From Selenomonas sp. AB3002 (lineage in GTDB: Bacteria > Bacillota > Negativicutes > Selenomonadales > Selenomonadaceae), in contig NZ_JNIO01000008.1 in NCBI RefSeq assembly GCF_000702545.1, forward strand, positions 1,984,001 to 2,048,000: DNA of 64,000 nt, given 5' to 3'. The notes under the pieces are model-generated. The model worked only from the letters and a program-made list of their open reading frames with translations, had not been told where the DNA came from and searched no databases. Positions 27,609-35,841 of this stretch are shown here, in pieces. The stretch's first letter is position 1. Each line of letters starts with the position of its first letter. Both the position numbers and the translations under genes were made by a program.

Positions 27609-27872
27609 TCAATAATGGTTGCGACAAGACAGGATGACAACTTTATTTTCTTCAACTGCGTATACAATCCTGTTCGTCTCATCAATTCTGCGACTCCAAA
27701 GACCTGTCAGATTCTCTTTCAATGGCTCTACTTTCCCTATTCCCTCAAAAGGATTTCTTCTTATATCCTTGATGAGATTGTTGATTCGTCTCAATATCTT
27801 TTTGTCCTGACTTTGCCAGTAGATGTAGTCATCCCATGCATCAATATCCCACTCTATACGTCTTATGCGCAT
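27609..27872 (-). CDS. yoeB: YoeB/Txe-family mRNA interferase toxin
   Basis: From ATG at 27872 the 87-residue protein has the YoeB fold signature: DIDAWDDYIYWQSQDKKILR near the start, then INNLIKDIRRNPFEGIGKVE, LTGLWSRRIDETNRIVYAVE and the C-terminal SCRNHY, whose His-Tyr end belongs to the active site. An SD (GAGGTG) lies in the end of the antitoxin gene, 4 nt before the start. YoeB toxins cleave mRNA at the ribosome. It is encoded after its antitoxin and followed by a terminator. Confidence 0.93.
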   Translation of the reverse strand: MRIRRIEWDIDAWDDYIYWQSQDKKILRRINNLIKDIRRNPFEGIGKVEPLKENLTGLWSRRIDETNRIVYAVEENKVVILSCRNHY

Positions 27873-27876
27873 GAAA

Positions 27877-28146
27877 TCACACCTCAATCAGCTCATGCTC
27901 AGCCATCTGAAGCCGTCCAGCCTTATACTCCTCATACTTCTGCTCAAGATAACGTATGTTGGCCTCAGAATAGAAAGGATCCACTGGTGCCGATACCTCA
28001 AAAGGAATCCTGCGCTCCCGGCCCACCTTCTTGGCAAAAATAGTGAAGGCAGCGCTCATGGACAATCCCATATCGGCGCAAGCCTGCTCCATGCTGCGTT
28101 TTACATCAGAATCCAGCTTGAAATTCACGCTTACTGTCTGTGCCAT
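27877..28146 (-). CDS. RelB/DinJ-family antitoxin
   Basis: The 89 residues start AQTVSVNFKLDSDVKRSMEQ and continue CADMGLSMSAAFTIFAKKVG, the ribbon-helix-helix DNA-binding part of RelB/DinJ antitoxins. The C-terminal 45 residues should wrap the toxin. Pairing a DinJ-type antitoxin with a YoeB toxin is a known mixed combination. It has its own promoter and an inverted-repeat operator candidate, consistent with autorepression. Confidence 0.9.
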   Translation of the reverse strand: MAQTVSVNFKLDSDVKRSMEQACADMGLSMSAAFTIFAKKVGRERRIPFEVSAPVDPFYSEANIRYLEQKYEEYKAGRLQMAEHELIEV

Positions 28147-28471: not shown

Positions 28472-28600
28472 AAAAAGGAGAGTGCAAAAGCACTCTCCTC
28501 AAACGTATGACCATTTGGCAGGCGTAGCATCCTCCTGCATCTCTCGGGTTGCCCCTGTCGTACCATCGGCGTGTGGTCGCTACGAAATCTACCACCTCAA
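28472..28600 (-). ncRNA. Candidate second small RNA, ending at a strong terminator
   Basis: A perfect 10-bp stem (AGGAGAGTGC, AAAA loop, 28476-28499) with a U-run on the minus strand shows that a minus-strand transcript ends here. The region upstream can fold (GTAGC/GCTAC, GACCA/TGGTC) and contains GGGGCAACCC. A 75-codon TTG/GTG frame runs through the terminator and is unlikely to be coding. I could not locate a promoter between this terminator and the next one at 28623. Confidence 0.3.
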
Positions 28601-28622
28601 ACAGTCACTTGCTTATTCTATT

Positions 28623-28725
28623 AAAAAGCCGCCCCATTAAGAGCGGCCTCCACCAGGGGCGGCGTACTTAACATACGCTTAGTCTTTAGACCGTATCCCT
28701 AGTGTAAACAGTACATATCGTCTGT
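28623..28725 (-). ncRNA. Candidate small RNA of about 100 nt with consensus promoter and terminator
   Basis: Promoter TTGACT (28755-28760), 17-nt spacer, TAATAT (28732-28737) on the minus strand, within the end of the DUF3800 gene. The terminator is GCCGCCCC/GGGGCGGC (28628-28635 and 28656-28663), followed by a U-run. No credible ORF lies between: the only ATG gives 17 codons that run into the terminator. Confidence 0.55.
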
Positions 28726-28745
28726 ATAGATATATTATCACATAA

Positions 28746-29438
28746 TTAAGGAAAAGTCAAGTTTTTATGATTAGGTATGTTTCTCAGATTTGGATTTTTG
28801 TCTCTATAAGATGTATATATGCGATTTGCCAATATATCACATGCTTGAATCATATAATTGCTCTTAGATTCACAGTACCTGACATCAACATGCACGTTAG
28901 AGGAAAATAACGGCTCATGAAACGTACCATAGTCATAGTTTGCAATACCATTCTGCAATTCTTCTTTCACTGTTTCTTTAAGCCCATATATACCATCAGT
29001 GGAAGTTAGTTGTTCATCTACTGAAATTCGTATGGTAATGTCCTGCTGACTGTCTAAAATCTGTTTGTCTATCAGATCACGAATCTTGCTCTTAATAGCT
29101 CTTTTCATTATATAATCTTTGTATCGACAAATTGATTTAGACGAAGACAGGATACTGGTATACACTTTATTGATATTAACAACTACCGACAAACTCTCCT
29201 CGTTTCTCAAAACGTTGTACAAAGCCCGTTTATGATTATTTGATAAGCCAAACGCCTTTATTTCATCAGTTCTCCCAAGTGCCGCCCTTATTTCATTTAC
29301 TAACGCCTTGTACTTACGCTTTGCATTATCCAAATCTAATCTAGATTCAAAAACATAACCTGCATAAACAAATATGCCCGTTTTATTATTTTTATGCAGC
29401 ACTCCAGAGTCATCAAAGAAAAAATATACTTCCTGCAA
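28746..29438 (-). CDS. DUF3800 domain protein (RNase H-like fold)
   Basis: From TTG at 29438 (AGGAGG SD, 7-nt spacing) the 230 residues match DUF3800. The first acidic motif is VYFFFDDSGVLHKN. RISVDEQLTS lies near 140, and the C-terminal SNYMIQACDILANRIY carries a conserved Asp. These acidic residues suggest a nuclease-like site, but activity is not established. Base use is far more AT-rich than the flanking genes, which points to recent acquisition. Genes of this family occur in mobile and defence contexts. Its stop overlaps the promoter of the small RNA at 28623-28725. Confidence 0.8.
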   Translation of the reverse strand: MQEVYFFFDDSGVLHKNNKTGIFVYAGYVFESRLDLDNAKRKYKALVNEIRAALGRTDEIKAFGLSNNHKRALYNVLRNEESLSVVVNINKVYTSILSSSKSICRYKDYIMKRAIKSKIRDLIDKQILDSQQDITIRISVDEQLTSTDGIYGLKETVKEELQNGIANYDYGTFHEPLFSSNVHVDVRYCESKSNYMIQACDILANRIYTSYRDKNPNLRNIPNHKNLTFP

Positions 29439-29511
29439 GTCCTCCCCTCCTTTTTCCACGTACAATTATAGCATAAAATAACTATATATAAAACCTACAC
29501 ATAACAAACAT

Positions 29512-29541: not shown

Positions 29542-29573
29542 CTATGTTGTTTAGTTTTTCTCTAACCGTTAGA

Positions 29574-30926
29574 TTAGAAGAACCACTCAACGCGACCGAA
29601 GAACTGCTTAACCTTCACATCGTTAGCGCCGATGACCTTGTTGTGGCCATACTTCAGGTGACCAACAATGTTCTTAGCGAAGGTGTACTCAGCGCCGAGA
29701 GACCAGCCCTTCAGACCCTCATCAGTCACATCCCAGGTAGCAGCCGGAGCAGCGAGGTAGCCGGTGTGACGGTAAGCGATCCATGCGCCCCAAGTCTTCG
29801 GGTTCTCTTTCTGAGCACCCTTGTAGCTGAACTCGACACCGAAGGCCTTCTTGTTGCTGGTGCCAAAGTTGTAACCGCCAAAGTTGAGGTCATCGTTGGT
29901 GTCAGCACCAAGGAGAGCGTCAGCGCTGCTGTGTGCATAGTAAGCCTGCAGCTTGCTGCTCCTGTCGAACTTGTAGCCAGCCCTTACCTGCCAGATGTTG
30001 TTCTTTTCCTTATCGCCATCAGCGTTGAAGAAAACCTCAGGGTTGGTGTAACGGAAATAACGGAGGCTACCGAAGAAGCCCTTGTTCTCATTGCGGTTGT
30101 AATCAAGGCCGGCATAGAACACGTTGGAAGCAGTGAACTGGTCGCTGAAGATGCTGTTGCCAAGGCCATCTTTGTAGTACGGGGTATCATCGAAAGCACC
30201 GGAAGAACGACCGCCACCGATAACACCGGAGAGCTTATTCTTGTTGCCGAGGGTGATATCAGCACCGGACATGGTGGTATCGTTGATGCTGTCATCGCCG
30301 TACATGCTGAACTTACCGAAACGGACGCTGAAGTTCTTGTAGTCACCCTGTGCCCAAGCGCGCTTGAGACGGAAGTCAGAATCATTGCCAGTGCCACGGT
30401 TCTGATTGTCAGAATCCATCTTGTAGTTGCCATCGAGACGAGCATTCACATGCCAGTGATCGTTGACCTCAGCGGAGGGCTCGAGACGGAACAGAAGGTT
30501 GTTGTTGGTTTCCTTCTCGCCATCCTTAACCTTATCGCGAGTGTAGGTGTACTCCAACTTACCGTTCCACTTAACCATGTCAGCATTGCGCTCGAGGTTA
30601 GCAACGCGAACGCCGAGGCTGTTCAGCTCATCAGCGAACTCAGCAGCGAGCTTGTCAATCATAGCCTTGTCAGCAGCGCTCACATCGTTCTTAGCCATTG
30701 CACGAGCGACCATCTGAGCCATCTCGTAACGGGTGATGTTGCGATCGCCACGGAAAGTGCTGTCGCCATAACCTTCGATGACGCCATCAGCAGCCAGCTG
30801 GCTTACAGCGTCATAAGCCCAATGATCAGCAGGAACATCGGAGAACGGATTTGCAGCAGCGAAAGTGGTGCTAGCTGCGCCCACAACCAGAGCAGTGGTC
30901 AGGGCAGAAACGAGAGTCTTCTTCAT
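29574..30926 (-). CDS. ompM: SLH-domain outer-membrane porin (OmpM/Mep45 type)
   Basis: The 450 residues begin with a Sec signal peptide (MKKTLVSALTTALVVGAAST, cleavage near TFAAANPF). An SLH domain follows: FSDVPADHWAYDAVSQLAAD, then DGVIEGYGDSTFRGDRNITRYEMA. After a short coiled-coil (residues 80-115) come about 330 residues of beta-barrel-like sequence with alternating aromatics, ending in a terminal Phe (VEWFF). In Selenomonas and Veillonella such proteins tie the outer membrane to peptidoglycan through SLH and act as porins. A strong promoter, a 112-nt leader and a terminator mark a highly expressed single gene. Confidence 0.96.
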   Translation of the reverse strand: MKKTLVSALTTALVVGAASTTFAAANPFSDVPADHWAYDAVSQLAADGVIEGYGDSTFRGDRNITRYEMAQMVARAMAKNDVSAADKAMIDKLAAEFADELNSLGVRVANLERNADMVKWNGKLEYTYTRDKVKDGEKETNNNLLFRLEPSAEVNDHWHVNARLDGNYKMDSDNQNRGTGNDSDFRLKRAWAQGDYKNFSVRFGKFSMYGDDSINDTTMSGADITLGNKNKLSGVIGGGRSSGAFDDTPYYKDGLGNSIFSDQFTASNVFYAGLDYNRNENKGFFGSLRYFRYTNPEVFFNADGDKEKNNIWQVRAGYKFDRSSKLQAYYAHSSADALLGADTNDDLNFGGYNFGTSNKKAFGVEFSYKGAQKENPKTWGAWIAYRHTGYLAAPAATWDVTDEGLKGWSLGAEYTFAKNIVGHLKYGHNKVIGANDVKVKQFFGRVEWFF

Positions 30927-30936
30927 TGAGAAACTC

Positions 30937-31388: not shown

Positions 31389-31426
31389 TACCTATCTTCC
31401 TTTCACTTATATATGGGGTGATTAGC

Positions 31427-32194
31427 TTGAAAATATCCATCTTGCAAATGCACACTATTCTTGGCCAGCCGGAGAAAAACACTGCCGCCTTCCTGCGCAT
31501 GGCAGAACAAGCCATGCAGGAAAAACCTGATATTCTCCTGCTGCCGGAGATGTGGAATATAGGCTTTTTCCCCCGTCCCGTGGAGGATTATGCCGATAAA
31601 AATGGCGAAAATACCCGCGCCCTGATGTCGGAATTTGCGCGGAAAAATCAGGTAAATATCGTAGGCGGCTCCGTAGCCAGACTGGAAAGCAGCACGGGAA
31701 AAATCTACAATACCTGCTATATTTTTGACCGCCAGGGACAGGAGATTGCCGCCTATGACAAGGTGCATCTCTTCTCCCCCGGCAAAGAAAATCAGGTCTT
31801 TGAAGCAGGCAGGAACATCTGCACCTTCACCCTGGATGGCCGCAAATGCGGCGTGGCTATCTGCTATGATTTGAGGTTCGGCAATTATCTAAGCAGGATC
31901 GCCGAAGATGTCGAAATCCTCTTCCTCCCCGCCGCCTGGCCGAAACTCAGGCAGAAGCACTGGGATATATTAACCCAGGCAAGGGCCATAGAATACCAGG
32001 TATTCGTGGCAGCCTGCAACGGAGGAGCTGAGACCAACGACAAACACCCGCTGGGAGGACATTCTGGCATCTTCGACCCGTGGGGAGAAGTGCTGGCGAA
32101 GGCAGGGGAAGGTGAAGACATTATTTCGGCAGAGGTGGATTTAGGGCTACCGGAGAAAGTACGAAAAAAGATACCTGTACGAATAGATAAATAG
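31427..32194 (+). CDS. Carbon-nitrogen hydrolase (nitrilase-family amidase, omega-amidase-like)
   Basis: About 255 residues with the full nitrilase triad: Glu in LLLPEMWNIGF, Lys in AAYDKVHLFSPGKE and Cys in CGVAICYDLRFGNYLSR. The second Glu region is AIEYQVFVAACN, and GGHSGIFDPWGEVLA follows. It resembles omega-amidase/NIT2-type enzymes that hydrolyse alpha-ketoglutaramate and similar amides, but the substrate is not certain. I chose TTG at 31427, with GGGGTG 6 nt upstream, over GTG at 31418. Its promoter must lie within the divergent DUF951 gene. Confidence 0.88.
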   Translation: MKISILQMHTILGQPEKNTAAFLRMAEQAMQEKPDILLLPEMWNIGFFPRPVEDYADKNGENTRALMSEFARKNQVNIVGGSVARLESSTGKIYNTCYIFDRQGQEIAAYDKVHLFSPGKENQVFEAGRNICTFTLDGRKCGVAICYDLRFGNYLSRIAEDVEILFLPAAWPKLRQKHWDILTQARAIEYQVFVAACNGGAETNDKHPLGGHSGIFDPWGEVLAKAGEGEDIISAEVDLGLPEKVRKKIPVRIDK

Positions 32195-32222
32195 CAACAG
32201 ACACAACGACACAACATTATGG

Positions 32223-32228
32223 TATAAT
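32223..32228 (+). promoter_or_regulatory. Extended -10 promoter of the 32-residue peptide gene
   Basis: TGGTATAAT: an extended -10, with no good -35 visible. Start near 32235, giving a leader of about 48 nt. Confidence 0.6.
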
Positions 32229-32282
32229 ATGTGTGCTGTCTATACCAATCTCCCGGATTTTGCATGAAGGGAGGTGCATTTT

Positions 32283-32381
32283 ATGTCCACTTTTCTGTTA
32301 GCTATGGTTTCCGGCGTAGTTGGTAGCATAATAGCCCACTACATTTGCAGAGCCATAGATCGGAGACTCGACAGCAAATAA
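32283..32381 (+). CDS. Small hydrophobic peptide (32 residues), candidate type I toxin
   Basis: ATG at 32283 has a strong SD (GGGAGGTG) with 7-nt spacing. The peptide is MSTFLLAMVSGVVGSIIAHY followed by ICRAIDRRLDSK: one transmembrane helix and a basic tail, the shape of many type I toxins. Its core GVVGSIIAHYI aligns with SVIAGMIANYL of the peptide at 34579. It has its own promoter and terminator. A minus-strand RNA (32434-32507) is complementary to codons 1-6. Toxicity is inferred. Confidence 0.65.
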   Translation: MSTFLLAMVSGVVGSIIAHYICRAIDRRLDSK

Positions 32382-32433
32382 GTGTTAATTTCTGCCGTCC
32401 GTTGTACGCCCTAGTCAGGCCCATGCACGGACA

Positions 32434-32507
32434 CAAAAAGGCCGCCCGGGTAGTCATCCCTGGCGGCTTTCTTGTTTGTGCACTCCATTGGTCCACATTC
32501 CTGTTAT
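32434..32507 (-). ncRNA. Convergent small RNA, candidate antitoxin RNA for the 32283 peptide
   Basis: Promoter TTGATT (32538-32543), 18-nt spacer, TGGTATAAT (-10 at 32514-32519) on the minus strand. The terminator is the shared hairpin at 32441-32467 with five U. The predicted 5' end (from 32506 to 32491) pairs with mRNA 32285-32300: 16 positions, with one U-U mismatch and one G-U pair. It also overlaps the 3' end of the peptide mRNA. Confidence 0.6.
32441..32467. terminator. Bidirectional terminator shared by the peptide mRNA and the convergent small RNA
   Basis: GCCGCC-C-GGG with CCC-T-GGCGGC, 7-nt loop. T-rich on the plus side and five U on the minus side. Confidence 0.8.
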
Positions 32508-32551
32508 GCCTTAATTATACCACTTGTCACCTGACAAAATCAACAGAAACC

Positions 32552-33658
32552 TCACACATTGAACAGGAAGTTGGTCACGTCTCCGTCCTGCATGACGTAT
32601 TCTTTGCCTTCGGTGCGGACCTGGCCCTTTTCGCGGGCTGCGGCCACGGAGCCGGCGGCAATGAGGTCTTCGTAACCCACAATCTCAGCACGGATGAAGC
32701 CGCGCTCGAAGTCCGTGTGGATCTTGCCTGCGGCCTTGGGAGCCGTGGTGCCCTTGGTGATGGTCCAGGCACGGCACTCGTCCGGGCCGGCGGTGAGGAA
32801 GGTCATGAGGCCCAGCAGGTCAAAGGCACCCTTGATGAGCTTGTCCAGACCGGACTCCTCCAGACCCAAATCAGCCAGGAACTCCTTGGCCTCTTCCTCG
32901 TCCAACTCGGCAATCTCGCTCTCCACCTTGGCGGAAATAGTGACTACCTCAGAGCCATGCTGGGCGGCAAAGTCGCGGACTCTCTTCACATACTCATTGT
33001 CAGCATCAGCCGTAGCCACCTCATCCTCAGACACGTTGGCCACATAGAGGACCGGCTTCAGAGTCAGCAGGTTCATCTCCTTGATGAGCTCCAGCTCATC
33101 CTCAGAGAGTCCCATGCTGCGGGCAGGCTTGGCTTCCTCAAGGGAAGCCTTGATGCGGCGTATCAGCTCATCCTCGGCCTTGGCATCCTTGTTGCCGGAC
33201 TTGGCCAATTTGGCCAGACGGGAAATGCGCTTCTCCACCACGTCAAGGTCAGCCAGGCAGAGTTCCGTCTGAATAATCTCGATATCACGCAGAGGATCTA
33301 CGCCGCCCTCCACATGGGTGATGTTGCCATCTTCAAAGCAGCGCACCACATGGGCCACCGCATCCACCTGACGGATGTGTTCCAGGAACTTGTTGCCCAG
33401 ACCCTCGCCCTGGCTGGCACCCTTCACCAGGCCGGCAATGTCCACGAAACGGACAGAAGCCGGGGTGGTCTTCTTGGAGTTATACATCTCATGGAGCACA
33501 TTCAAGCGTGCATCCGGCACAGCCACCACGCCCACATTGGGCTCGATGGTACAGAAAGGATAGTTGGCAGCCTCAGCGCCAGCTTTGGTTATTGCGTTAA
33601 ACAACGTGGACTTGCCTACATTAGGAAGTCCAACGATACCGACTTCTAAATTGCTCAT
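32552..33658 (-). CDS. ychF: Ribosome-binding GTPase/ATPase YchF (Obg-like)
   Basis: The 368 residues have G1 GLPNVGKSTLFNAITKAGAE, the G3 region VDIAGLVKGASQGEGLGN, and a NVSED stretch in place of the usual NKxD, a YchF trait that allows ATP use. A coiled-coil middle and a TGS domain at the end (TKGTTAPKAAGKIHTDFERG, then FNV) complete the match. YchF binds ribosomes and is implicated in stress responses. It starts 24 nt after upp and is probably co-transcribed with it. Confidence 0.96.
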   Translation of the reverse strand: MSNLEVGIVGLPNVGKSTLFNAITKAGAEAANYPFCTIEPNVGVVAVPDARLNVLHEMYNSKKTTPASVRFVDIAGLVKGASQGEGLGNKFLEHIRQVDAVAHVVRCFEDGNITHVEGGVDPLRDIEIIQTELCLADLDVVEKRISRLAKLAKSGNKDAKAEDELIRRIKASLEEAKPARSMGLSEDELELIKEMNLLTLKPVLYVANVSEDEVATADADNEYVKRVRDFAAQHGSEVVTISAKVESEIAELDEEEAKEFLADLGLEESGLDKLIKGAFDLLGLMTFLTAGPDECRAWTITKGTTAPKAAGKIHTDFERGFIRAEIVGYEDLIAAGSVAAAREKGQVRTEGKEYVMQDGDVTNFLFNV

Positions 33659-34397: not shown

Positions 34398-34499
34398 GAA
34401 AAAGAGCCGCCCCCGTAGGAACGGCTCTCCCCTTGTCCATCATGCGGACCTCGCGGTGTCGCAGGCGACCAACCCACAACACCAAATGACCTCTCAGCT
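34398..34499 (-). ncRNA. Divergent small RNA of about 100 nt, candidate antitoxin RNA for the 34579 peptide
   Basis: An extended -10 TGCTACAAT on the minus strand (TACAAT at 34506-34511) gives a start near 34499. The terminator is AGAGCCG/CGGCTCT (34403-34409 and 34422-34428) with five U. The first bases, GCTGAGAGGT (34498-34489), are perfectly complementary to 34552-34561 in the peptide mRNA leader, just before its SD. No other gene could feed this terminator, because the upstream one at 34717-34740 stops csaB transcription. Confidence 0.6.
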
Positions 34500-34505
34500 A
34501 AGTCT

Positions 34506-34538
34506 ATTGTAGCACAATATATATATAAATGCTATAAT
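34506..34538. promoter_or_regulatory. Palindromic divergent promoter between the small RNA and the peptide gene
   Basis: ATTGTAGCA (34506-34514) and TGCTATAAT (34530-34538) are near-perfect inverted copies. Each supplies an extended -10 (TGCTACAAT on the minus strand, TGCTATAAT on the plus strand). The AT-rich 15 bp between are shared by both promoters. Confidence 0.6.
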
Positions 34539-34578
34539 AATTTTGCTGTGCACCTCTCAGCGGAAGGGAGGGAAAAAT

Positions 34579-34668
34579 ATGACTTTCTCAGCTATACTGC
34601 GTGACCTCCTGATTTCCGTAATCGCAGGGATGATCGCAAACTATCTGTTCACCGTGCTGATGAATTAG
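34579..34668 (+). CDS. Small hydrophobic peptide (29 residues), candidate type I toxin
   Basis: ATG at 34579 follows a strong SD (GGAAGGGAGGG). The peptide is MTFSAILRDLLISVIAGMIA followed by NYLFTVLMN, a single hydrophobic helix. Its core resembles that of the 32283 peptide. The leader of about 34 nt contains the 10-nt site complementary to the divergent RNA. It is followed by a terminator at 34717. Toxic action on the membrane is inferred from shape and layout only. Confidence 0.6.
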   Translation: MTFSAILRDLLISVIAGMIANYLFTVLMN

Positions 34669-34716
34669 CACAGCCATCAGCAAACACCTCGGGCAAGAGA
34701 CCAGCCGTTGAGGGAG

Positions 34717-34740
34717 AAAAGCCACCGCAAGGTGGCTTTT
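34717..34740. terminator. Bidirectional terminator between the 29-residue peptide gene and csaB
   Basis: AAAAGCCACC-GCAA-GGTGGCTTTT, a perfect 10-bp stem with T-runs in both directions. Confidence 0.88.
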
Positions 34741-34743
34741 CGT

Positions 34744-35841
34744 TTATCCTTTTTTCTCCAGCAGCTCAAGCGCTAATTCTGCATTCCGCGCTGCCTTTTC
34801 TCTAAGCTCCCCCAATAGCTGGGCATTGCGTTTCTTGAAGGTAGCCTTGTCGTTCCACTTCTTGCGGATTTCCTCCAGCAGGTCTTCTGCCGTGAGACTT
34901 TCCAGATCTCCTACCGGCTCCTCGCCGATGGAGGAAAGGAAGCGGTCAATCTTCGGGTCATAGGAAATGCCTATCATGGGCACTCCCATAACCCCTGCGA
35001 AAATCAGCGCATGGAGGCGGATAGCCAGCATCAAGTCCATATTCCCAACCAGGGACAGGAACTCGCTGGTGGTGTACTCATCCTCCAGCACAGTGCAGGG
35101 CTCTTGCGTCAGCTCTGCAATGCTCTGGGCGGCCCGCACATCTTCGGGGTACTGCATGGGCAGGAATACCACCCTTGCTTTCAGATCCCTGACAATGGCA
35201 TCGCTGGCTTTGGCCAGTTCCTCCTTGAAGTGATGGCACCCCTGCCAGTCGCGGACAGAAATACCTACTACGGGACTAGCGCCCTCGGCGTGATACTTCT
35301 TGAAGATGGCGCGGCCAGCTTCCTTGTCCACGGGATGGATAGCCAGCACCGGGTCAGCAGTGCACTCAATATGCGGACGGGTGATGCCCAGGCTGGCCAG
35401 CTCTGCCAATGAACCTTTATCACGCACGGTGATAAGGTCAACCCTGTTGGCAATATGCCCCATGACCCGCCGGGCCATGCGCCCCCTGATAGGGCCGATG
35501 CCCTGGGCATAGAGCATGACCCTGGTGCCCAGCATCTCCGCCATCTTGATAATGGCGAGATAATAGTAGAGGCTCCTGCGGCTGGTGACATTCTGGAGGA
35601 GACTGCCGCCGCCGCTGATGAGAAGGTCTGCCTTTTTCAGCGCCTTGCAGATAGCAGTCATGTCCAGCCAGGAAATGGCTTCTACGCCGTGACGCTTGGC
35701 GGTATCCTGCGGGGCAGCCGAAATGACGGTGATATGAAGTTCTGGTTCCAGGTCACCTAGCACTTCCAGCATAGCCGCCAGCATAGCTTCGTCGCCGGCG
35801 TTCTTCGAGCCATAGTATCCTGAGATGACAATCCTGCTCAT
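34744..35841 (-). CDS. csaB: Polysaccharide pyruvyl transferase CsaB
   Basis: The 365 residues match CsaB: ISGYYGSKNAGDEAMLAAML at the start, LLISGGGSLLQNVTSRRSLYYY near 75, MLYAQGIGPIRGRMARRVMG near 110, SVRDWQGCHHFKEELAKA and the C-terminal AIRLHALIFAGVMGVPMIGISYDPK. CsaB adds pyruvate to a wall polymer that SLH domains recognise, so it fits with the SLH porin at 29.6 kb, although some Negativicutes SLH proteins bind polyamine-modified peptidoglycan instead. The ATG shares one base with the preceding stop (TGATG). Confidence 0.93.
   Translation of the reverse strand: MSRIVISGYYGSKNAGDEAMLAAMLEVLGDLEPELHITVISAAPQDTAKRHGVEAISWLDMTAICKALKKADLLISGGGSLLQNVTSRRSLYYYLAIIKMAEMLGTRVMLYAQGIGPIRGRMARRVMGHIANRVDLITVRDKGSLAELASLGITRPHIECTADPVLAIHPVDKEAGRAIFKKYHAEGASPVVGISVRDWQGCHHFKEELAKASDAIVRDLKARVVFLPMQYPEDVRAAQSIAELTQEPCTVLEDEYTTSEFLSLVGNMDLMLAIRLHALIFAGVMGVPMIGISYDPKIDRFLSSIGEEPVGDLESLTAEDLLEEIRKKWNDKATFKKRNAQLLGELREKAARNAELALELLEKKG

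Follow-up and report, generated by a model that had tools for sequence, protein, structure and literature searches.

A probable par/Fst-like type I toxin-antitoxin locus on the chromosome of Selenomonas sp. AB3002, with a variable pairing code over the toxin start codon

A stretch of 64,000 nucleotides (nt) from the 3.67-Mb genome of Selenomonas sp. AB3002 (contig NZ_JNIO01000008.1, positions 1,984,001 to 2,048,000; hereafter the window) carries, at 32223-32543, a short open reading frame (ORF) for a one-helix membrane peptide and, convergent to it, a putative antisense RNA whose 5' region is complementary to the start of that ORF. We consider it highly probable that this is a chromosomal type I toxin-antitoxin locus that would work like the par locus with its toxin Fst. 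An earlier note, made from the sequence alone, had read the locus as a type I system whose RNA overlaps the mRNA at the terminator and could, besides, block the start codon; comparison of relatives strongly supports that reading. In these relatives the two pairing sites change together, with no independent drift, which are the compensatory changes that the note had proposed to seek in homologues.

Results

The 32-codon ORF, both promoters, the Shine-Dalgarno sequence (SD) and the common terminator hairpin lie where the earlier note had placed them, as judged from the sequence, from scans and from folding. The features of the locus, with the basis of each, are as follows.

32220-32228, + strand: extended -10 (TGG-TATAAT) of the toxin mRNA promoter, TGGTATAAT (sequence; relatives have the same spacing from the -10 to the pairing 5' end)
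32234-32240, + strand: 5' arm (UGCUGUC) of a long-range helix with its partner at 32370-32376 (covarying in relatives)
32248-32275, + strand: 5' hairpin sequestering the SD, 32248-32254 with 32269-32275 (folding)
32274-32300, + strand: mRNA target site, comprising the last SD base, the spacer, the start codon and codons 2-6 (26-bp duplex, covariation)
32283-32381, + strand: toxin ORF, 32 residues, single hydrophobic helix and basic tail (sequence, homologues)
32370-32376, + strand: 3' arm (GACAGCA) of the long-range 5'-end helix, at the ORF end (fold, covariation)
32397-32432, + strand: hairpin of the 3' untranslated region, between stop codon and terminator (folding; by eye also in relatives)
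about 32433-32476, both strands: terminator hairpin common to both RNAs (folding on each strand)
32436-32507, - strand: putative antitoxin RNA of about 70 nt, predicted 5' end at about 32507 (promoter, hairpin)
32478-32506, - strand: 5' pairing region of the antitoxin RNA (duplex prediction)
32543-32514, - strand: antitoxin promoter TTGATT-N18-TATAAT with TG, -10 at 32519-32514 (promoter scan)

The two promoters converge, with -10 boxes at 32223-32228 (+) and 32519-32514 (-). The TATAAT of the toxin promoter has no good -35, and the promoter scan did not list it because the -35 is weak; the toxin mRNA would be expected to begin at about 32234. Its SD is GGGAGG (32269-32274), and the 32 codons run from the ATG at 32283 to a TAA ending at 32381. 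The antitoxin promoter matches the consensus at 10 of 12 positions and carries the TG (the scan, of 1.8 kb, gave two promoter-like sites, against a mean of 1.0 in shuffles). The terminator hairpin, with a U-rich tail, folds alike on both strands and is thus a predicted bidirectional terminator, of which the terminator scan listed the + strand form alone, its stem having 5 pairs (two sites in all; shuffles mean 1.6). From the sequence, the mRNA and the RNA would overlap at their 3' ends by about 40 nt. Rfam at gathering scores gave no match at the toxin locus.

A repeat of the 16-mer 32285-32300 lies at 32491-32506, differing by one mismatch and one G-U pair, exactly as had been claimed. This match is real but understates the extent of the pairing: the predicted duplex has 26 bp, joins mRNA 32274-32300 with RNA 32506-32478 at -33.7 kcal/mol and runs from the final base of the SD through codon 6. 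Its energy was equalled by none of 2000 shuffles of the RNA and by none of 2000 shuffles of the mRNA. Among 4917 windows of 52 nt on both strands, tiled so as to leave out the minus-strand windows at the RNA gene itself, just two did better than the antitoxin RNA, and both hold its own complement. L006, the closest relative at 94% peptide identity, has GTGTA in place of GTGCA in the spacer that precedes the start codon, and has it in both copies, as read by eye.

The evidence that carries the reading comes from relatives. Because loci were picked on the peptide alone, the RNA side is an independent test. From 113 ORFs in 107 loci, 94 distinct loci were kept, the window locus included, after removal of repeated start regions and of two ORFs with an expectation value (E) above 1e-6. 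The start region (-10 to +28) of each locus was compared with the best ungapped direct copy in its own flanks, and the copy scored at least 10 in 81 of the 94 loci; the same score was reached in 138 of 7409 comparisons with single flanks of other loci and in 19 of 188 with other ORF segments of the same loci. Start-region sequences thus differ between loci yet match within each. In the copies of the 81 loci, 54 transitions keep the pairing as G-U and 6 break it, besides 25 transversions; chance matches between loci gave 93 and 62, respectively, from which 54:6 differs (Fisher p 1.4e-5). Because mismatches that keep G-U outnumber breaking transitions, an asymmetry for which a DNA repeat gives no reason, the conserved property is RNA pairing. 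In 65 of the 81 loci an antisense -10 occurs no more than 30 nt from the copy (random places, 21%). In the same 81 loci, which were preselected for a copy, the mean predicted energy is -38.2 kcal/mol for cognate and -19.0 for non-cognate duplexes, and for 70 antitoxin RNAs the best target is the cognate mRNA. Loci collected later from other families behave alike: a copy is present in 14 of 16 (cross pairs, 28 of 240), with 12 pairing-keeping and 2 breaking transitions. The input to this last test was 14 loci from the class and phylum searches, all outside the family of the window, the counts being given for n = 16.

The fold of the toxin mRNA is also conserved in relatives, both in the helix between the 5' end and the ORF end and in the SD hairpin. 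For these tests 112 loci were used (94 + 24, duplicates merged), and the -10 box was taken as the best consensus match, which leaves some 5' ends as guesses. In 71 of the 112 loci the initial bases of the mRNA pair, at a score of at least 18, with the end of the ORF or with bases just past it, compared with 8.2% of cross-locus pairs and 13% of mid-ORF segments of the same loci. RNAalifold, applied to 11 genus-level mRNAs, found the long-range helix without being prompted; two of the six pairs in it show double changes. The pairing probability of the SD was 0.74, against 0.60 with a shuffled leader (n = 112, p 3e-17).

The place of the antitoxin gene varies within Selenomonadaceae. Among the 81 loci with a copy, 52 have it downstream of the toxin (convergent) and 28 upstream (divergent), 29 upstream calls having been made, of which one fell outside the usual distance. 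The median start of the copy is 91 bases past the stop codon in the 52 downstream loci and 119 bases ahead of the start codon in the 29 upstream ones. For 26 of the 29 upstream calls, no family ORF that could own the copy lies within 450 bases upstream, and the other three stand behind another family ORF; a terminator-like site follows the antisense copy in 21 of the 29 (shuffles, 1 of 29). The copy was downstream in all 18 rows that by title fall outside Selenomonadales (two with the same start region), as it was in all 14 loci of other families in which a copy was present. The convergent form is probably ancestral, because copies outside Selenomonadaceae, where found, are all downstream; the antitoxin gene would then have moved while its target was kept. 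Start-region copies stand in both flanks of the toxin in L030, L039, L081 and L086, which are possible intermediates between the two forms.

The window itself apparently holds both forms. A second locus (34398-34745), 2.3 kb from the first, has the following features.

34579-34668, + strand: related second toxin ORF, 29 residues, of a divergent locus (sequence, relatives)
34398-34511, - strand: putative divergent antitoxin RNA of the second locus, with the start-region copy at 34487-34501 (sequence; L164-L166 by eye)

The divergent RNA has its own terminator hairpin, and a 5'-end helix (GCTGTGC at 34545-34551 with GCACAGC at 34668-34674) was recognized by eye. The second peptide was matched in five of six genomes of the genus, its own included, and two relatives in the genus (L165 and L166) carry other, internally matching codes (by eye). 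It is the weaker of the two loci, because its duplex energy, taken by itself, falls short of significance (250 of 2000 shuffles were as good) and its support comes from relatives read by eye.

The peptide of the first locus was matched at E ≤ 0.1 in all six genomes of the genus, its own included. At the family level, 124 of 189 Selenomonadaceae genomes, in 21 of 30 genera, gave a match to a 16-row profile (E ≤ 0.01). Matches to a 53-row profile occurred in 93 of 300 genomes of the class sample (E ≤ 1e-9; four families) and in 4 of 199 genomes of the phylum sample (E ≤ 1e-10; own genome included). A scan of named genomes added at least 19 loci, including ones in Massilimicrobiota, Emergencia and Oscillospiraceae, and the same arrangement was found on plasmids of Enterococcus hirae, Ligilactobacillus salivarius and Mediterraneibacter gnavus. 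The family consensus is xxxxxxFxxSVxAxVIxHYICKWLDRxx. Genomes hold several paralogues with differing pairing codes. At L179 (1500-2780), four related toxin ORFs stand in tandem, each with its own start-region copy downstream.

Some hits were set aside. Three Ensifer hits, of seven plasmid hits, lie under a transposase gene; a Staphylococcus plasmid hit (L114, E 3) was dropped, since by eye it seemed to belong to a longer frame. Three weak matches (E 2) came from phage records, where two lie under genes for tail fibres and the third under one for a hypothetical protein. A Pfam search of the window peptide found no match, and two profile matches to PDB entries (E 0.56 and 1.4) were taken as chance.

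The locus of the window lies between a carbon-nitrogen hydrolase gene (31418-32194, +) on the left and ychF (32552-33658, -) on the right. Four of the six genomes in the genus have a locus at the site beside ychF, and these loci belong to at least three peptide subfamilies and have unlike codes; read partly by eye, the sites (window 32200-32550 and L169-L174) point to replacement, or to gain and loss, at one site. The closest relative, L006 in genome G001, adjoins sequence that in the window's own genome flanks another paralogue, L109 (by eye), and modules seem to change places between these sites.

Other features of the neighbourhood were recorded in passing. In a type II toxin-antitoxin pair (27609-28146, -), the antitoxin at 27877-28146 is RelB (Pfam E 2e-12), and we take the other ORF, at 27609-27887, to be YoeB-like. 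A DUF3800 gene (28746-29465, -) is followed by a DUF3800-I RNA (28615-28732) and a skipping-rope RNA (28510-28605), both above their Rfam gathering scores. A 461-codon ORF (29544-30929) stands opposite the full length of a 450-codon gene (29574-30926, -), presumably for an S-layer-homology outer membrane protein, and is probably a by-product of codon bias.

Discussion

From the observed anatomy and covariation we infer the transcripts, the order of steps, the toxicity and the fate of the duplex as follows. The 5' end of the toxin mRNA would pair with the end of the ORF and the SD would be held in its hairpin, so that translation is delayed. The small RNA would be transcribed towards the toxin mRNA and end at the common terminator. 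By analogy with par, first contact would be made at the complementary terminator hairpins; the 5' region of the RNA would then pair with the SD edge, the start codon and codons 2-6 and turn translation off, and the duplex would subsequently be degraded. Once the RNA is depleted, the one-helix membrane peptide would be made and would harm the cell's own membrane. The start-codon pairing region would act as an identity code, one for each paralogue, and the predicted duplexes suggest that antitoxins should not cross-protect.

Toxicity cannot be read from sequence, and the alternative that deserves most attention, though we think it unlikely, is a non-toxic regulatory small membrane protein controlled by an antisense RNA of the same anatomy. 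An excerpt of the study of fst-Sm (PMC3543317) reports that deletion of that locus left growth in liquid medium unaffected, though the overproduced peptide was toxic. Against a regulatory protein speak paralogues with unlike codes, the tandem ORFs of L179, the plasmids of three genera and the different modules at one site, all of which are typical of toxin-antitoxin systems, as well as the similarity of the peptides to two models of type I toxins. The convergent layout and the common terminator hairpin would also fit a 3'-end antitoxin like that of txpA/RatA, in which overlap at the mRNA 3' end recruits RNase III and the start-codon match is incidental. This is very improbable, since the predicted overlap is about 40 nt and not the 100-140 bp given in an excerpt of PMC6562991, since the start-codon match is kept family-wide with its G-U bias, and since it is kept in 28 loci whose RNA gene lies upstream, where a 3' overlap is impossible.

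The copies are direct repeats in DNA, and they could owe their presence to duplication, recombination or protein binding, with no role in RNA pairing; the G-U-compatible asymmetry (54:6 overall, 21:3 in divergent and 33:3 in convergent loci) and the antisense -10 that adjoins the copy in 65 of 81 loci make this scarcely credible. Short ORFs and 16-nt near-matches do arise by chance, and the ORF list of the region has 112 entries. That the locus combines a chance match with a spurious small ORF has nonetheless a negligible probability, given that no shuffle of either side equalled the duplex, that the peptide matches in 124 of 189 genomes and that copies recurred in 14 of 16 later loci.

Several observations weigh against a par/Fst-like toxin-antitoxin locus. 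In the own-flank test, 13 of the 94 loci had no clear copy, and by eye two of the six genomes of the genus have no locus beside ychF, so that the locus is not fixed there. The Fst model NF033608 (cut-off 26 bits) did not match the window peptide and matched 7 of 53 family members at E ≤ 0.1, the best at 25.1 bits and none past the cut-off. The tryptophan that marks Fst at the junction of helix and charged tail is present in 45 of the 53 members and absent from the window peptide; the pAD1 Fst prototype has V in its place. The model of C. difficile type I toxins, NF047374, has a cut-off of 60 bits, which none of the 53 members passes (best 32 bits; window peptide 16.1). By eye, no YUNR motif was seen in the terminator loop (UAGUCAU in the mRNA); some par homologues also lack this U-turn loop, according to an excerpt of PMC7472228.

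Among the matches listed in open-licence PubMed Central text, none was found to describe type I toxin-antitoxin loci from Selenomonas or any other member of the Negativicutes, and the pair in the window is very probably an unrecognised one. What is new is the presence of such a system in Negativicutes and the convergent and divergent placement of the antitoxin within one family. On balance, we favour a wider proposal, namely that these loci form an unrecognised type I superfamily that is frequent in Negativicutes and sporadic in other Firmicutes and on their plasmids. It would carry a rewritable identity code over the toxin start codon, with several mutually insulated modules per cell. Modules with unlike codes would replace one another at chromosomal sites, as seen at one site, and in Selenomonadaceae the antitoxin gene would have moved from behind the toxin to before it with the start-codon pairing kept. 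Dozens of natural toxin/antitoxin pairs with one anatomy and differing pairing codes make the specificity of small RNAs directly testable, including how it can diverge without killing the cell. In addition, gene order, convergent or divergent, is an unsafe classifier of type I systems.

Comparison with known systems

The earlier note had likened the locus to txpA/RatA and zorO/orzO. Both proved a poor fit, because the pairing site of OrzO lies 73-91 nt upstream from the start codon of zorO (PMC3919570) and B. subtilis RNAs such as RatA bind the 3' ends of toxin mRNAs over 100-140 bp (PMC6562991); we rejected them as closest kin on these published pairing sites, the sources of this section being cited from excerpts. 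The zorO/orzO system does resemble the window locus in that the 5' end of the small RNA (18 nt) pairs with the toxin mRNA and the pairing region tells paralogues apart; its genes are divergent (PMC3919570) and would hence share no terminator, whereas the window locus is convergent and pairs on the start codon. Likewise, the RNAs of txpA/RatA and bsrG/SR4 overlap the 3' end of the toxin mRNA, but with 100-140 bp of complementarity, compared with about 40 nt here, and no start-codon pairing site was found for them in the excerpt of PMC6562991.

Resemblances to other small toxins are more partial. The C. difficile model matched 32 of the 53 members at E ≤ 0.1 (best 1.2e-7), and CD2517.1/RCd8 and its relatives likewise have a convergent antitoxin RNA; those toxins are of 50-53 residues and their RNAs have a long mRNA-complementary region (PMC6563280), the loci being compared here by description and model score. 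Pfam Ldr_toxin matched 7 of the 53 members weakly (best E 0.012). The toxins of enterobacterial Ldr/Rdl share motifs with Fst and are regulated like hok/sok (PMC7472228), by way of a coupled leader peptide (PMC6562991), unlike the start-codon pairing here. LydA holin matched weakly in 10 of the 53 (best E 0.002), as expected because of the short hydrophobic helix.

The close match in layout is par/Fst. According to Weaver (PMC7472228), par and its homologues have convergent promoters, a bidirectional terminator, repeats at the initiation site, an SD hairpin and a 5'-end helix. Par of plasmid pAD1, with Fst systems of Enterococcus, Streptococcus, Lactobacillus and Staphylococcus, has the first two in common with the window locus (PMC7472228, PMC3543317). 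The same two sources describe poorly conserved direct repeats through which the small RNA pairs with the initiation site of fst (overlapping the start codon in fst-Sm, PMC3543317), an SD hairpin and 5'-end helix in the mRNA, and a one-helix peptide of about 30 residues with a charged tail and a P/D/S/TxxxG motif, which is SGVVG in the window. This [PDST]xxxG helix motif occurs in 26 of the 53 members, the window peptide included (shuffled mean 9, maximum 16). Unlike Fst, the window peptide has neither tryptophan nor proline, and Y, C and D are nearly invariant in the YICKWLD consensus of its family; also unlike par/Fst, 28 of the 81 copy-bearing Selenomonadaceae loci have the copy upstream. 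The peptide family thus appears to sit between Fst and the C. difficile toxins. We conclude that the peptides are related to Fst, and that the locus is a divergent relative working like par/Fst, without certified membership of its protein family.
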